A stretch of 64,000 bases of DNA, taken from assembly GCF_038039215.1 (NCBI RefSeq), contig NZ_JBBPCL010000001.1, forward strand, positions 2,666,001 through 2,730,000, given 5' to 3'. The first letter of the stretch is position 1. Each line of letters starts with the position of its first letter. The stretch is from Pseudonocardia sp. T1-2H (GTDB lineage Bacteria; Actinomycetota; Actinomycetes; Mycobacteriales; Pseudonocardiaceae). The notes below the pieces were generated by a model. It saw nothing but the letters and a program-made list of their open reading frames with translations. It was not told the origin of the DNA and did no database searches. Below, piece after piece: positions 38,937-46,099 of the stretch. Both the position numbers and the translations under genes were made by a program.

Positions 38937-39662
38937 TCAGCGCGCGTTGTGGAAGATGATCCCCAGCACGTGCCGCTCCCCGGAGTGCACCGCGCTCACG
39001 CCGTGCCTCATCTGTACCCGGTGGTAGCCGCGGGTGCCGAGCTTCGGGCGGTGCCGCACCGGGAAGATGAGCGCCTCGCCCTGGCCCGGCCGCGCGACCA
39101 TCGGCCGGGACTGCTGGCGGGGCCGCTGCTCGACGAACACGCTCTCGCCGCCGGTGAAGTCCTCGTCCGGCCGGCTCAGCATGATCAGGAACTGCAGCGG
39201 GAACGTCAGGTCGCCGTAGACGTCCTGGTGCAGGCAGTTGTAGCCGCCGGGGCCGTAGCGCAGGACCAGCGGGGTCGGGCGGTGCTGGCCGAGCCCGGCG
39301 CACTCGTCGAGGAGCGCGTCGAGGTTCGTGGGGAAGCGGCGTTCGCCGAGCCGCTCCGCCCACCGGTTCGCGATGGCGGCGAGCGGCGGGTAGAGGGCCT
39401 CGCGCAGCTGCTGGACGAGCTCGGGCAGCGGGTTCGCGAAGTAGCGGTAGCTGCCCTCCCCGAAGGAGTGCCGCGCCATGGTGACCGTGCTGCGGAAGCG
39501 GGCGTCGTCGTCGAACATGCGGGCGACGCCGCGGCACTGGTCGGGGCCGAGCAGCGGCCCGGCGGAGGCGAAGCCCTCCGCGTCGAGCCGCTGCTCGATC
39601 GCCGGCCAGTCGAGGCTCCGGGCGGTGTCGGCCGGGCCCGGCGTGGTGGTGGCGTCGGTCAT
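38937..39662 (-). CDS. 2OG-Fe(II) oxygenase (prolyl-hydroxylase/AlkB-like fold)
   Basis: The product is 241 aa. The Fe ligands are in NCLHQDVYGDLTFPL (HxD), with a distal His in RHGVSAVHSGERHVLG, and a 2OG-binding Arg close behind. The double-stranded beta-helix context YRYFANPLPELVQQLREALY and FTGGESVFVEQRPRQQSRPM matches a family often found beside alkyltransferase genes. GGAAGGA lies five bases before the ATG at 39662. The ogt gene ends 26 bases upstream, so the two are co-transcribed. A role in oxidative removal of alkyl lesions is plausible, but no activity can be read directly from the sequence. Confidence 0.87.
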   Translation of the reverse strand: MTDATTTPGPADTARSLDWPAIEQRLDAEGFASAGPLLGPDQCRGVARMFDDDARFRSTVTMARHSFGEGSYRYFANPLPELVQQLREALYPPLAAIANRWAERLGERRFPTNLDALLDECAGLGQHRPTPLVLRYGPGGYNCLHQDVYGDLTFPLQFLIMLSRPDEDFTGGESVFVEQRPRQQSRPMVARPGQGEALIFPVRHRPKLGTRGYHRVQMRHGVSAVHSGERHVLGIIFHNAR

Positions 39663-39688
39663 GCTGGTCCTTCCGATCGCGAGCCGGT

Positions 39689-40204
39689 TCAGGCCGATCC
39701 GAGCATCGCCTGCGGGGACTCGAGCTCGAGCAGGCGCCGCTTGATCTCGAGGCCGCCCGCGTAGCCGGTGAGGTCGCCGTTGCTGCCGACGACGCGGTGG
39801 CACGGCACGAGGACCGGGACCGGGTTCCGGGCCATGGCGGACCCGACCCGGCGCGGCCCCACGTCGGACGACCACGACTCCGACCCCGGCCCGCCCCGGC
39901 GGGCGAGCTGCGCGGCCAGCCTGCCGTAGGTGGTGGTCTCGCCGTGGCCGACCGCGCCGAGGAGGTCGAGCGCCGCGCGCTGCCCGGCGCCGACCCCGCG
40001 GAGGTCGACCGGGACGGTGAACGCCGTACGGGTGCCCGCGAAGTACTCGTCGAGCTCCCGGGAGGCCTGCTCGAGCCACTGCCCGGCCTCGGTGGAACGA
40101 GCCGTGTCGGCGGGCGCGGCGCCGAACGCGACGCGGGTGATGCCCTCGTCCGAGGCGGTGAGGGTCAGCGGCCCGATCGGCGTCGAGCGGATGGTCGTGG
40201 ACAT
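39689..40204 (-). CDS. ogt: Methylated-DNA-protein-cysteine methyltransferase
   Basis: The product is 171 aa. The active-site motif PCHRV contains the acceptor C135. Around it are the helix-turn-helix-like TTYGRLAAQLARRGG and MARNPVPVLVPC, typical of Ogt proteins. It repairs O6-alkylguanine by irreversible methyl transfer to its cysteine. It is followed by the 2OG oxygenase gene in an operon. Its promoter region (40237-40271) shares a 16-base element and a spaced GCAAC box with the promoter of the nearby ECF sigma gene, suggesting control by that sigma factor. Confidence 0.93.
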   Translation of the reverse strand: MSTTIRSTPIGPLTLTASDEGITRVAFGAAPADTARSTEAGQWLEQASRELDEYFAGTRTAFTVPVDLRGVGAGQRAALDLLGAVGHGETTTYGRLAAQLARRGGPGSESWSSDVGPRRVGSAMARNPVPVLVPCHRVVGSNGDLTGYAGGLEIKRRLLELESPQAMLGSA

Positions 40205-40236
40205 GGGGGTCGCTCCTCTGCTGGGTTCTCCGGTTC

Positions 40237-40271
40237 GTCCTGCAGAACCCCGTCCGGGTCGTTCCCGTTGC
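40237..40271 (-). promoter_or_regulatory. Probable ECF-sigma promoter of ogt
   Basis: On the minus strand GCAAC (40271-40267) is followed after 14 bases by CGGGGTTCTGCAGGAC (40252-40237), about 32 bases before the ogt ATG. The same two elements at the same spacing occur upstream of the ECF sigma gene (41757-41723). Identical 16-base elements at identical spacing are very unlikely by chance and look like -35/-10 recognition by the local sigma factor. Confidence 0.65.
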
Positions 40272-40286
40272 CCCTGCGGTCCACGG

Positions 40287-41060
40287 TCAGGCCGCGGGCC
40301 GGCAGTGCAGGCAGGGCCGATAGCCCGCAGCTTCGGCCGTGGAGACGGTGCGGAAGCCGTGCCGGTGGGCCGGAGTGATCCGCCGGGCGTCGCGGCAGGT
40401 CGGGAAGCAGAAGACCCCGGTGGTGTCGCTGGCCAGGTAGCGCACGCCGCCGCGGGCGAGCGCCCGGACCCCGTCGAGGTCGACGTCCTCGTCGCGCAGC
40501 AGCTGCTCCTTGGACGGAGCCCCGAACATGTAGTCGCCCACGGCGCCGTCGGCGCGGACGACGCGGTGGCACGGCACGAGCAGCGGTACCGGGTTGCGGG
40601 CGAGCACCGATCCGACGGCCCGGACGGCGCGCGGGCTGCCGGCCTCGCGGGCCACCCAGCCGTAGGGGCGGGTCTGCCCGGCCGGGATCCGCCGGGTCGC
40701 GGCCAGCACGGCCCGTTCGAACTCCGAGAGGCCGGCGAGGTCGAGCGTCAGGGCGCGGGCCTGGCGTCCCCGCAGCGCGGGCAGGACCCCGGCGGGGAGC
40801 CTCGCCGCGGGTTGCAGGGGGCGGGCGAACCGCCGGTGGTAGGCGTCCGCGAACCCGTCGGCGTCACCTTCCCCGGCGGGGCGCAGGAACTGCACGCCCC
40901 GGTCGGTGAAGGCGACGAAGACGTCGCCGAGGCGGCTCGGCGCGCTCGCCCAGCGGGTGAACACCCTGTCCGCCAGGCCGGGCGGCGCCGGCGCGGCGAG
41001 GGTGCCGAGCGCGCTGACGAGCTGCTGATCGGTGCCGAAAGGTCGGCCGTTGTTGGTCAT
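40287..41060 (-). CDS. Alkyltransferase with C-terminal Ada zinc domain and novel N-terminal domain
   Basis: The product is 257 aa. An Ogt domain occupies about 105-195 with the acceptor C164 in PCHRV. It is followed by an Ada-type metal-binding domain at about 200-255, with C218 and C222 (CFPTC) and C250 and C253 (CLHC), the spacing of the methylphosphotriester sensor of Ada. This order is reversed from E. coli Ada and no AraC-type helix-turn-helix is present. The N-terminal ~95 residues begin QLVSALGTLAAPAPPGLADR, reminiscent of anti-sigma N-termini. The ATG overlaps the ECF sigma stop. It may sense alkylation and control the sigma factor. Confidence 0.88.
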   Translation of the reverse strand: MTNNGRPFGTDQQLVSALGTLAAPAPPGLADRVFTRWASAPSRLGDVFVAFTDRGVQFLRPAGEGDADGFADAYHRRFARPLQPAARLPAGVLPALRGRQARALTLDLAGLSEFERAVLAATRRIPAGQTRPYGWVAREAGSPRAVRAVGSVLARNPVPLLVPCHRVVRADGAVGDYMFGAPSKEQLLRDEDVDLDGVRALARGGVRYLASDTTGVFCFPTCRDARRITPAHRHGFRTVSTAEAAGYRPCLHCRPAA

Positions 41061-41722
41061 CGACTTGTCCTCCCCGACCGGAGCACCCGCTGTGCCGTTC
41101 CGCCGACGACCGTCACCGTGGCGGTGGTCGTGGTGTCGGTGAGCAGTGTCCGTAGTCGTTGCAGTCCTCGTGAGATGTGGGATTTGGCGGTGCCGTCCTT
41201 GCAGCCGAGGATCGCGGCGATCTCGCCGATCGGCAGGTCCACGACGTGCCGGAGCACGATCGCGGTCCGCTGCGCCTCGGGCAGTTCGGCCAGGACGACG
41301 CCGAGGCGGCGTTGCGTGTCCGCGCGCTCGGCGCGTTCCGCGGGGCCCGCGGCGGGTTCGGGCCCGGTCTGCTCGGTGGACGGTTCGAACGCCGGCGGGG
41401 GGCCGGGCCGTCGGGCGGCGTCCCTGGCCGCGTTGCGGGCGGTGTTGCGCAGGATCGTGAGCAGCCAAGGCCGGATCGACAGCGTGCCGATCCGCGCGGC
41501 GTCGAAGCCGCGCAGGGCCCGGTACGCCTTGAGCAGGGCCTCCGCGGCCAGGTCCTCGGCGTCGGCCGGGCGGGCGAGGTTGCGGGCGACGGAGTGGACG
41601 ACGTCGCCGTGCACCCGCGTGAGCTCGGCGAATCCGGAGTCGAGGTCACGAGCCAGGGCACAGCGCAACCACTGCTCCTCGACGGCGGCCTCGGCCGTCC
41701 CGTCGTGCCCGTCGTCGACCAT
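41057..41722 (-). CDS. ECF-subfamily RNA polymerase sigma factor
   Basis: The product is 221 aa. Region 2 is at about 28-95 (FAELTRVHGDVVHSVARNLA, PADAEDLAAEALLKAYRALR). Region 4 is at about 145-195 (LAELPEAQRTAIVLRHVVDL, PIGEIAAILGCKDGTAKSHI). The linker is Pro/Glu-rich. The last ~25 residues are a Thr/Val-rich tail. Its stop overlaps the start of the alkyltransferase/Ada-domain gene, so the two are made together. The candidate promoter ends directly at the ATG, implying a leaderless or very short-leader mRNA. The element shared with ogt suggests it activates its own gene and ogt. Confidence 0.9.
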   Translation of the reverse strand: MVDDGHDGTAEAAVEEQWLRCALARDLDSGFAELTRVHGDVVHSVARNLARPADAEDLAAEALLKAYRALRGFDAARIGTLSIRPWLLTILRNTARNAARDAARRPGPPPAFEPSTEQTGPEPAAGPAERAERADTQRRLGVVLAELPEAQRTAIVLRHVVDLPIGEIAAILGCKDGTAKSHISRGLQRLRTLLTDTTTTATVTVVGGTAQRVLRSGRTSR

Positions 41723-41757
41723 GTCCTGCAGAACCCCGCTTCGGCTTTTGCGGTTGC
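41723..41757 (-). promoter_or_regulatory. Probable autoregulated ECF-sigma promoter
   Basis: On the minus strand GCAAC (41757-41753), 14 bases, then CGGGGTTCTGCAGGAC (41738-41723) lead straight into the ATG at 41722. The layout is the same as upstream of ogt. If the second element contains the -10 region, transcription would begin at or just before the start codon. Confidence 0.62.
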
Positions 41758-43240: not shown

Positions 43241-44266
43241 TCAGGGCGTGAGGATCGCCCGTCCCCGGATCCGTCCCGCTTCCAGGTCGTCGAGCGCGTC
43301 CTGGAAGCGGTCCAGCGGGTACTTCGTCGTGTGCAGCTTCACCAGCCCGCGGGCGGCGAGGACCATCAGCTCGCACAGGTCGTTGTAGCTGCCGACCAGG
43401 TTGCCGATCAGGTTGATCTCGGTGGAGATGACGTCGATCGTCGGGATGTCGATGTTCTCGCCGTACCCGACGACGTGGTAGTCGCCCGCCCGGCGCAGCA
43501 TCCGCACGCCGTCGCGGGTGCTGCCGCCCTCGCCGACGAAGTCGACGACGACCTCGGCGCCGTTCCCGTCGGTGAGCTCGAGGACCTCCTCGACGTGCCC
43601 ACCCTCGGCGACGATCCCGTGGTCCGCCCCGATGGACAGGGCGAGCTTCACGGCGTCCGCGTTGCGGTCCACGACGACGATCTCGGCCGCCGTCATGGCC
43701 TTGAGCGCCTGGATCCCGATGTGCCCCAGGCCGCCGGCGCCGATCACCACACAGCGGTCGCCCGGGCGCAGGGTGCGGGCCGCCTTGGCCGTGGCGTGGT
43801 AGGCGGTGAGGCCGGCGTCGGCCAGTGCGGCGACGTCCGCCGGCTCCAGCGAGTCGTCGAGCTTCACGACGCTGCGCGCGGACGTCCGCAGGTACTCGGC
43901 ATAGCCGCCGGCGGTGTCGATGCCGGGGAACCGGCTCTGCGTGCAGTGCACGTCGTCGCCGGAGCGGCAGGCGCGGCACAGCCCGCACGTCATCAGCGGG
44001 TGCACGATCACCTTGTCGCCCTCGGCGACGTTGGTGACCGCGCTACCGGTGGCGTGCACCCAGCCCGCGTTCTCGTGGCCGATCGTGTACGGCAGGGTCA
44101 CGCCGGACTTCTCGGCCCACTGGCCCTCGAGGATGTGGATGTCCGTGCGGCACACGCCCGCGCCGCCGATCTTCACGATCACGTCGTACGGCTCGACGAC
44201 GGCGGGCGCGGCGACGTCGGTCATCTCGAGGTTCCGGCCGTAGCCGACGACCTGGACTGCCCTCAT
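43241..44266 (-). CDS. Zinc-dependent NAD(P) alcohol dehydrogenase (propane-cluster type)
   Basis: The product is 341 aa. Catalytic zinc ligands are C39 (GVCRTD) and H64/E65 (GHENAG), and structural zinc ligands are C94, C97, C100 and C108 (CGLCRACRSGDDVHC). The NAD loop is GAGGLGHIG at about 176. It oxidises primary or secondary alcohols. AAGGAG precedes the ATG at 44266, which overlaps the stop of the DUF59 gene. In mycobacterial and Pseudonocardia propane monooxygenase clusters an ADH of this type follows an amidohydrolase and a DUF59 protein, and the same order is seen here. Confidence 0.92.
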   Translation of the reverse strand: MRAVQVVGYGRNLEMTDVAAPAVVEPYDVIVKIGGAGVCRTDIHILEGQWAEKSGVTLPYTIGHENAGWVHATGSAVTNVAEGDKVIVHPLMTCGLCRACRSGDDVHCTQSRFPGIDTAGGYAEYLRTSARSVVKLDDSLEPADVAALADAGLTAYHATAKAARTLRPGDRCVVIGAGGLGHIGIQALKAMTAAEIVVVDRNADAVKLALSIGADHGIVAEGGHVEEVLELTDGNGAEVVVDFVGEGGSTRDGVRMLRRAGDYHVVGYGENIDIPTIDVISTEINLIGNLVGSYNDLCELMVLAARGLVKLHTTKYPLDRFQDALDDLEAGRIRGRAILTP

Positions 44267-44998
44267 GCGGAGATCTCCTTCAGGTTCTCGGCGCCCTCGG
44301 CCCGCGGGGCCTGGTCGTCGGCCGAGTCGGGGTAGCGGGTGCGCAGCAGGCCGCGGCAGAAGTGCGCGTTGCCGTCGATCGAGATGCGGGTGGAACGGGC
44401 GAGGCGTAGCCGCAGCGGGACCTCCTCGCGCGGGTACGGGCGGCCTCGGTCGTCGACCATCACCGGCTCGTCCGGGCCGGTGCCCAGGCCGAGCGCCTCC
44501 CGCCGGCGCAGCAGGGCGTGGGTGGTCCGCTCGTCCGGCAGGTCGCCGAGGGTGACGGCGTGCAGGTCCGCCTCCTCGAGCTTCCCGATCCCGGCGGAGC
44601 AGCTGCGTCAGCGCCCGCTCCATCGCGGCGGTGTGGGCCTTGCGGCGGAAGGTGAGGCGCAGCTCGTCGAGGCTGCTCTCCGCCTCCTCGCCGAAGGTGC
44701 CCCGGTAGCCGGCGTCGGCCGCCAGCCCGGCGTTGATCAGATCCGAGTCGTGGTGGTCGTCGAGCAGCACCTCCACCTCGCGGACCTCTGGCAACGCCGT
44801 CAGGGCGTCCTTCGCGTCGGATGCCATGAGGTAGGCGAAGTTCGGCGAGCAGAACGAGGTGGGCAGCCGCAGGTGCACGCTCACGCGCCCGTCCGGGGAC
44901 GCGTCGAGGGAGCGGACGAAGCCGAGATCGGTGATCGGCTCGTCGAGCTCGGGATCGTAGACCGTGTGCAGGGCGGCGTAGGCGTCATCCCGGATCAC
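44263..44998 (-). pseudogene. DUF59 (metal-sulfur cluster/PaaD-like) protein of alkane-monooxygenase loci, frameshifted
   Basis: From a GTG at 44998, three bases after the amidohydrolase stop, the frame reads YAALHTVYDPELDEPITDLG and LPTSFCSPNFAYLMASDAKD, a DUF59/MIP18-type domain with its conserved Cys. It continues to ALTQLLRRDRE near 44600. There the proper sequence (AGIGKLEEADLHAVTLGDLP) moves to another frame by one extra base. It then runs on to RYPDSADDQAPRAEGAENLK and the stop at 44263. Without the extra base the protein would be 244 aa. It probably helps mature a di-iron monooxygenase. It could be a sequencing error. Confidence 0.8.
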
Positions 44999-45000
44999 GG

Positions 45001-46015
45001 TCAGGCCACCGCCACGGCCTGGGGCTCCTCGCGGGGCAGCTGCAGCTCCGCGGGCACCGGGATGTCGTACATGGCCGCGGCGTTGAGGCCCAGGATCTTC
45101 TTCTTCTGCTCCAGCGTGAGCGGCGCGTACTCGGAGAAGCTCCTCGGGGATCTGGAAGTCCACGAAGCGCTCGACGAGCCAGCGCGGCGTCCAGATCGCG
45201 TAGTCGCTGGAGAACTGGATCCGGTCCTCGCCCAGCCAGTACAGGAGCTCGCCGATGATCTGCCCGAAGTACTTGGGCCGGGTGTGGATGAACGGCATGG
45301 CGACGGCCAGGCCCGCGTGCACGTTGGGCTCCTGGGTGGCGATCCAGCAGAAGTCCTCGAGCCGGGGGAGCCCGCAGTGCTCGACGACGAAGTTCAGCTC
45401 GGTGAAGTCCGTGGCCACCTTGTCCACGTCCGCGACGTCGAACGCGTCCCGGTCCAGGGGGCGGATCGTCGGCCCCTTGTGGATGTGGATGTTCTTGACG
45501 CCCAGCTCCTGGGCGGCCTCGAGGTACCGGTAGGACCACGGGTCGTCGAGCTTCCAGCCGCGCGAGCTGCCGTGCCACTCGGCGGTGTAGAGCTTGGCGC
45601 CCTTCAGGCCGAAGCGCTTCGCGTCCTCCCGCAGCTGCTTCAGGCCCGCCTCCTCGAAGCGCGGGTCCCAGCAGTGGTTGTAGGTCAGCCTGTCCGGGTG
45701 CGCACTCGCCAGGGCGAACGCCTCCTCGACCTGCCCGAAGCCGTTGTTGTAGAAGGCGGGCAGCGCGGCCGGCTGGAAGATCGCGTGGTCCACGTGGCCG
45801 TCGACGAAGAGGTCCTTCATCAGGCGGTCCCCGCCCTGGTAGAGGAACTCGTCGTAGGACCAGGACTCGGACTCCGGGCCGAGGTTGCGGTGGTAGTCGT
45901 AGAAGCAGTCGATGAACTGCTTGCCGTGGATGTTGCGCTGGTTCTCCGGTCGCGCATCCCACAGGGCGACGTGGGCGTCGACGATGAAGTAGTTCTCGCC
46001 GTCCTTGGTGTACAT
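45001..46015 (-). pseudogene. Amidohydrolase of propane/alkane-monooxygenase loci, frameshifted near the 3' end
   Basis: The frame from the ATG at 46015 gives MYTKDGENYFIVDAHVALWD and runs through a full TIM-barrel amidohydrolase-2 fold (HCWDPRFEEAGLKQLREDAK, HIHKGPTIRPLDRDAFDVAD, VVEHCGLPRLEDFCWIATQE, IQFSSDYAIWTPRW). Near 45139 one extra base shifts the frame just after FVDFQIPEE. The expected tail FSEYAPLTLEQKKKILGLNA then follows in another frame to the stop at 45001. Corrected length is 337 aa. Genes of this type accompany binuclear-iron alkane monooxygenases. Being near the end, the shift may be an assembly artefact. Confidence 0.85.
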
Positions 46016-46099
46016 GGGTGCTCCTGGTCTCCGCGACAGCAATGGCACGTTCGACCCGGGACGCTAGGGAGCCGGGCGTGCGCGGCGGGTCCGCGCGCG

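Follow-up and report, generated by a model that had tools for sequence, protein, structure and literature searches.

A window of 64,000 nucleotides from Pseudonocardia sp. T1-2H (contig NZ_JBBPCL010000001.1, positions 2,666,001 to 2,730,000; "the window" denotes the whole of this stretch) was examined in the present study for four minus-strand genes that appear to form a DNA alkylation-repair module under its own sigma factor. In order of transcription these are an extracytoplasmic function (ECF) sigma factor, a partner protein in which an Ogt methyltransferase is followed by an Ada zinc domain (Ogt-Ada(Zn)), a plain ogt gene and a 2-oxoglutarate (2OG)-Fe(II) oxygenase (Table 1). The stop codon of the sigma gene and the start codon of the partner gene overlap, which likely reflects translational coupling, and ogt and the oxygenase are probably co-transcribed. 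One promoter-like element ends 9 nt ahead of the sigma ATG, and a second of the same type lies 41 nt ahead of the ogt ATG, inside the 82 nt that separate the partner stop codon from ogt.

Table 1. Positions in the window of the module, its promoter-like elements and neighbouring genes
Feature	Position	Strand	Details
ECF sigma factor, 221 aa	41057..41722	-	regions 2 and 4, DAED in region 2; PF04542 3.6e-12, PF08281 3.4e-15, TIGR02937
Ogt-Ada(Zn) partner, 257 aa	40287..41060	-	PF01035, PF02805
Subdivision of the partner			extension, residues 1-32; Ogt, residues 33-192 with C164; Ada zinc domain, about residues 200-255 (profile alignment and model)
ATGA overlap, 4 nt	41057..41060	-	sigma stop / partner start
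Promoter-like element of the sigma operon	41732..41757	-	GCAAC 41757-41753, N16, GGGTT 41736-41732
Promoter-like element of ogt	40246..40271	-	GCAAC 40271-40267, N16, GGGTT 40250-40246
Plain ogt, O6-methylguanine-DNA methyltransferase, 171 aa	39689..40204	-	PF01035 2.3e-24, PF02870 1.7e-14
Oxygenase-NA, 2OG-Fe(II) oxygenase linked to damaged DNA, 241 aa	38937..39662	-	PF09859 1.4e-77
Membrane-like protein, 255 aa	38161-38928	+	convergent with the oxygenase
Single long frame	43241-46048	-	apparently amidohydrolase-like, MIP18/DUF59-like and zinc alcohol dehydrogenase-like parts
AcoR-type regulator		+	close to the long frame

The association of this sigma factor with its partner is far from chance. 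Among 60 related genomes, all nine full-length fusions, including that of the window, have the sigma gene upstream (L020-L028), and a related ECF sigma factor lies directly upstream in 79 of 80 loci from named genomes, taken as the best 80 of 589 relatives. These 80 loci extend from Actinomycetota to Chloroflexota and cover, among others, Pseudonocardia, Nonomuraea, Actinomadura, Actinoallomurus, Actinomycetospora, Actinokineospora, and acidimicrobial and Rubrobacter metagenome-assembled genomes (MAGs), as well as Chloroflexota, including Thermogemmatispora, and Dormiibacter MAGs. A 4-nt overlap with an ATG, GTG or TTG start was present in 64 of the 79 sigma-bearing loci. Of the 394 genomes in a class-level sample, 10 had a match, one of these being the genome of the window; a sigma gene was paired in all ten partner loci, three of them without the zinc domain. 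In a phylum-level sample, pairing was seen at each of the 27 loci whose match reached the zinc domain with E below 1e-60; any match at 1e-22 was found in 163 of 396 genomes, the remainder being shorter Ogt matches. Five loci are duplicated across these sets (L022/L050, L024/L051, L025/L053, L026/L105 and L028/L068). The positions of ogt and the oxygenase vary (upstream, downstream, divergent or unlinked), while the partner keeps its place behind the sigma gene in all but one of the 80 loci. This difference in mobility argues against an ordinary operon in which a partner with a repair role alone is produced alongside the sigma factor, without contact between the two, and in which another regulator, proteolysis or general DNA damage controls the sigma factor. 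We regard such an arrangement as unlikely, even though the recognised domains of the partner are all repair domains with intact acceptor motifs.

By its domains the sigma factor is an ECF (group 4 sigma-70) protein, with PF04542 and PF08281 but no further sigma region, and with a TIGR02937 (sigma70-ECF) score of 87.1 bits against a cut-off of 42.9. A DAED-like motif occurs in 65 of the 79 sigma factors of the named-genome loci; its role, and the contrasting case of the intrinsically inactive ECF43, are described in PMC8999054. Because the motif is present, the window sigma factor is probably not intrinsically inactive in the manner of ECF43, and a sigma factor that activates itself would need a brake. 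The same paper, citing the ECF reclassification, states that ECF122, a group with no anti-sigma factor and an uncharacterised mechanism, has conserved neighbour genes for 6-O-methylguanine DNA methyltransferases (PMC8999054). The window locus shares this neighbour feature, with the partner directly downstream, and none of the adjacent genes that were read encodes an anti-sigma factor, making the sigma factor a candidate member of ECF122 by neighbourhood only.

The partner contains five cysteines, namely C164 in the PCHRV acceptor motif of an Ogt/MGMT fold, and C218, C222, C250 and C253 in an Ada zinc motif (PF02805, 41.5 bits against a cut-off of 23). In profile alignments, residues 31-191 correspond to 1sfe and residues 200-255 to N-Ada. 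It differs from Ada of the E. coli type in its reversed domain order, in scoring 112.4 bits against a cut-off of 345 for the equivalog PRK15435, and in having neither HTH_18 nor another AraC helix-turn-helix (HTH) by Pfam. The initial annotation of this stretch had named the overlapping sigma and fusion genes followed by ogt and the oxygenase, the same five cysteines and the missing AraC part, and all of this holds, with the four genes in place. It had also claimed a novel N-domain, which profile and model instead identify as an ordinary Ogt N-domain, an outcome that the annotation itself had named as counting against its proposal; only residues 1-32 are additional. The acceptor motif, as PCH[RK], is present at all 80 named-genome loci, and a pattern search detected the four zinc cysteines in 105 of 106 fusions. 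With the first form of the zinc pattern, 76 of 80 loci had matched; inspection by eye showed all four cysteines in L118, L125 and L127 as well, and the last one missing from L106, a locus that appears damaged. The alignment (A4) consists of 94 rows chosen for diversity out of 106 pairs, with the partners of L167 and L179, and L106, excluded.

Partners without the zinc domain also adjoin related sigma factors preceded by the same promoter-like element (L029-L031, L152-L154). Because these members share the promoter, Ogt may be the core sensor, and the Ada zinc domain would not need to be the trigger. Among 18 more distant Ogt loci (L032-L049), a sigma open reading frame was found in only five by BLAST at 1e-5 (L032-L034, L036 and L042), and all five sigma factors are of one distant type. 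There are at least two sigma-Ogt lineages, that of the window and this distant one. The second pair occurs in genomes of the same order, its sigma factor is about 30% identical and its genes overlap or adjoin; the Ogt has no zinc domain and carries an N-terminal extension of its own. A search of loci L032-L036, L042 and L047 turned up no GCAAC element, and some of the five distant sigma genes have a CGTCTAC-like stretch just ahead of the start. At five Rubrobacter-like loci (L170, L173, L175, L176 and L177), the sigma stop codon TAG is followed immediately, and in the same frame, by the partner ATG, so a single read-through would fuse the two proteins.

In the window, the pattern GCAAC-N17-GGTTCTGC occurs twice, ahead of sigma and of ogt, with differing spacers and an expected number of 0.00. 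Searching for GCAAC-N15..17-G[GT]GTT gave 93 matches in 92 loci (81 with N16; seven of the 93 being repeats of the same records) versus one match for the reversed pattern. The form GCAAC-N16-G[GT]GTT precedes the sigma gene in 60 of 79 loci. In most of these (49 of the 60) it ends 7-11 nt ahead of the first in-frame start codon, a distance that suggests leaderless transcripts. All 14 matches in L050-L129 away from sigma genes were read; five precede ogt, five Oxygenase-NA (L051, L052, L055, L103 and L105, where the oxygenase has its own copy) and one an alkyltransferase-like (ATL) gene. None of the other three is convincing, one preceding what we take to be a transporter-like gene and two nothing sensible. 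The ATL-like gene, with PWHRV, is located on the minus strand in the Chloroflexota locus L110, divergent from the sigma-partner operon and about 25 nt from the sigma element, and it has a copy of the element to itself. Across eight Pseudonocardia genomes, a stricter pattern gave 51 sites versus three for its reverse; among the 30 that were read, 13 lie ahead of sigma (six), ogt (four) or the oxygenase (three), whereas the other 17 precede no gene of these types. In one Pseudonocardia genome (G001), the ogt gene at one of these sites lies on a different contig from sigma and keeps the element 8 nt ahead of its ATG. The window's own genome has 18 exact matches, and just two of them, those at sigma and at ogt, resemble promoters; four presumably lie in 16S rRNA, and no convincing gene was found behind the other 12. 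Variants of the element exist, some Rubrobacter-like loci appearing to carry GAAAC in place of GCAAC.

Because the element precedes both the sigma gene and alkylation-repair genes, we infer that the sigma factor reads GCAAC-N16-G[GT]GTT. Judged from these motif positions, the sigma factor most likely drives itself, the partner and a small alkylation-repair set, and alkylation repair is its likely regulon. Copies of the element ahead of other repair genes also fit a partner that is simply one more repair enzyme.

The zinc domain of the partner seems to have kept one function of its Ada counterpart and to have lost another. E. coli N-Ada uses R45 and R71 to read the A box, and F114, H115 and R118 to read the B box (PMC4437013). 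In the window partner, R45 is kept as R226, the R71 position is H252 and the B-box part is absent, so that the Arg71 and HTH residues of an Ada promoter reader are missing. Arginine occupies the R71 position in eight of 105 fusions versus all 30 of the Ada-type loci L188-L217, which have the best zinc-domain matches within the genus (one match per locus, the HTH being confirmed for L189 only). The simplest reading is that the domain still accepts methyl groups while the sigma factor supplies promoter recognition. With no AraC part and Arg71 mostly lost, the output is unlikely to be that of Ada, in line with the distinction from Ada's direct DNA binding drawn in the initial annotation, which had also proposed that the sigma factor runs an alkylation-repair module. 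That such a dedicated module exists is now supported by the conserved pairing and by the element common to sigma, ogt and the oxygenase. That a DNA-reading arginine was given up while the methyl-acceptor cysteines were kept also speaks against a partner with a repair role alone.

The same residues bear on a further possibility, in which the methylated partner binds the sigma factor or RNA polymerase and assists it, the unmethylated partner being neutral. Methylated Ada acts with RNA polymerase according to PMC4437013, and the reference list of that paper includes a title on Ada-sigma subunit interaction. The conserved pairing and the gene overlap fit such a helper equally well, and the retained R226 may leave some DNA contact. 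We nevertheless consider it improbable, about as much so as an operon without contact, given that the absence of Arg71 in the other 97 of the 105 fusions and of any HTH makes promoter targeting by the partner doubtful, and that a sigma factor with its own conserved element, and competent by motif, has less need of a helper than of a brake.

On balance we lean, if only slightly, towards an adaptive response to DNA alkylation that works through the sigma factor, with the partner as a methyl-triggered brake on it. The sigma factor would activate itself, the partner, ogt and the oxygenase from the GCAAC-N16-G[GT]GTT promoter, and the partner would bind and restrain it, most likely through the conserved N-terminal extension, which is not known to have a role in repair. 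Suicide methylation of C164 in the Ogt part by O6-methylguanine or O4-methylthymine would alter the partner and free the sigma factor; where the zinc domain is present, methylation of C218 by methylphosphotriesters would do likewise. Fresh unmethylated partner would shut the response off, and the cell would therefore track its stock of unused repair protein. A bolder version, to which we give a little less than an even chance, is that the suicide repair enzyme is itself the anti-sigma factor, holding sigma by an N-terminal helix. Each repair event would destroy one holder, and the freed sigma factor would restore spare capacity. An adaptive response to alkylation would then have evolved independently a second time and be present in several phyla, with the zinc domain reused as a sensor without DNA reading. 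There is good support for an alkylation module run by the sigma factor together with an Ada-Ogt protein, which is broader than originally proposed, and the release of sigma by methyl transfer to the Ada domain, as put forward in the initial annotation, is plausible as a mechanism.

Several observations weigh against a restraining partner. The conservation of the extension speaks in favour of such a role, the 105 aligned fusions having at least 33 residues ahead of G45, and L18 being kept in 102 of them and P26 in 91, but its lengths depend on partner starts having been picked adjacent to the sigma stop codon. Pfam detected no anti-sigma domain in the window partner, and the HX3CX2C motif of zinc anti-sigma (ZAS) factors is absent from it, no cysteine preceding C164. 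A single-chain model of a homologous sigma-partner pair had confidently predicted folds (pLDDT 89, pTM 0.63) but gave no readable interface. Sigma regions 2 and 4, taken together in the model, deviated by a root-mean-square distance of 13-19 A from anti-sigma-bound sigma factors and of 19.7 A from a holoenzyme sigma factor. In a covariation analysis of 104 pairs plus the window pair, the top ten inter-protein scores exceeded the maxima of 15 shuffles, but these were made within two coarse clusters with relatedness uncontrolled, and the effective number of sequences (Neff) was 60. Neither the covariation nor the model could show a complex, in keeping with a partner that is only co-produced. Two apparent natural sigma-Ogt fusions (P0121 and P0179) look by eye like frameshift artefacts, with a garbled sigma region 4 in both and a garbled Ogt in P0121 as well; they were rejected as proof of contact. 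The sole exception among the 80 loci, an Ogt-Ada(Zn) fusion in a Chloroflexota MAG (L124:4755-5714), has no upstream sigma gene and likewise fits a partner with a repair role only, and because of it the sigma factor cannot be indispensable. Its start codon is ambiguous, MSDYYW giving a protein without, and MLLAG one with, a segment of similar length, so its extension is not judgeable, and its use as proof that the extension accompanies the sigma factor was dropped. The exact element is absent ahead of sigma in 19 of the 79 named-genome loci and in 21 of the 27 phylum-sample loci, being present in six of the latter. Lastly, the window's own genome encodes a canonical Zn-AraC-AlkA protein (L189, G000:C1:607697-607888). 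Replacement of canonical Ada by the sigma module was rejected on this ground, and the module is instead an additional circuit.

Around the module, the membrane-like protein convergent with the oxygenase has no Pfam family above cut-off. The region of the long frame, with the AcoR-type regulator close by, presumably resembles an accessory cluster of a short-chain alkane monooxygenase.

For a repair protein doubling as a transcription factor, the textbook example is the Ada response. Like E. coli Ada, the partner combines both methyl-acceptor modules (the C-Ada Ogt fold and the N-Ada zinc domain) in one protein, and the module would induce both itself and repair genes. Unlike Ada, the partner has the order Ogt then zinc domain, no AraC HTH and mostly no Arg71, and the output apparently runs through a dedicated sigma factor rather than DNA binding by the sensor. 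The Zn-AraC-AlkA (AdaA-AlkA) protein L189 shares the Ada zinc domain and a link to alkylation repair, but is an HTH_18 regulator-glycosylase with arginine at the R71 position. In systems of the SigR-RsrA type, an ECF sigma gene is followed by a tightly coupled cytosolic anti-sigma factor with reactive cysteines, and the operon is autoregulated. The window sigma gene is likewise trailed by a coupled cytosolic partner with reactive cysteines in a seemingly autoregulated operon, whereas this partner is a suicide DNA-repair enzyme without HX3CX2C, and inhibition by it is putative. The closest described arrangement is ECF122, an ECF sigma factor beside a 6-O-methylguanine DNA methyltransferase with no anti-sigma factor; the available sections of PMC8999054 mention neither an Ada zinc domain nor a promoter, a regulon or a mechanism for it. 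The initial annotation had considered the circuit undescribed. A search of open-access papers (subscription papers and preprints lying outside its scope) found no circuit with sigma control of Ogt or Ada, the word "sigma" being absent from the accessible part of a 2023 alkyltransferase review (PMC10779285) and no such circuit appearing in that of PMC8103513; the claim nevertheless calls for a qualification, Ogt having already been reported as a neighbour of ECF122 (PMC8999054).

These findings suggest that repair proteins have a second way, alongside the route taken by E. coli Ada, of signalling methylation damage to DNA. The same two chemical sensors appear to have been rewired to a sigma factor that has a conserved promoter of its own and a small regulon, and a residue for reading DNA to have been given up. 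If true, this could explain a sigma group listed as an Ogt neighbour with an uncharacterised mechanism, the suicide enzyme would gain a role as a consumption gauge, and one sigma factor, one sensor and one promoter would together make a compact methylation-responsive promoter system.

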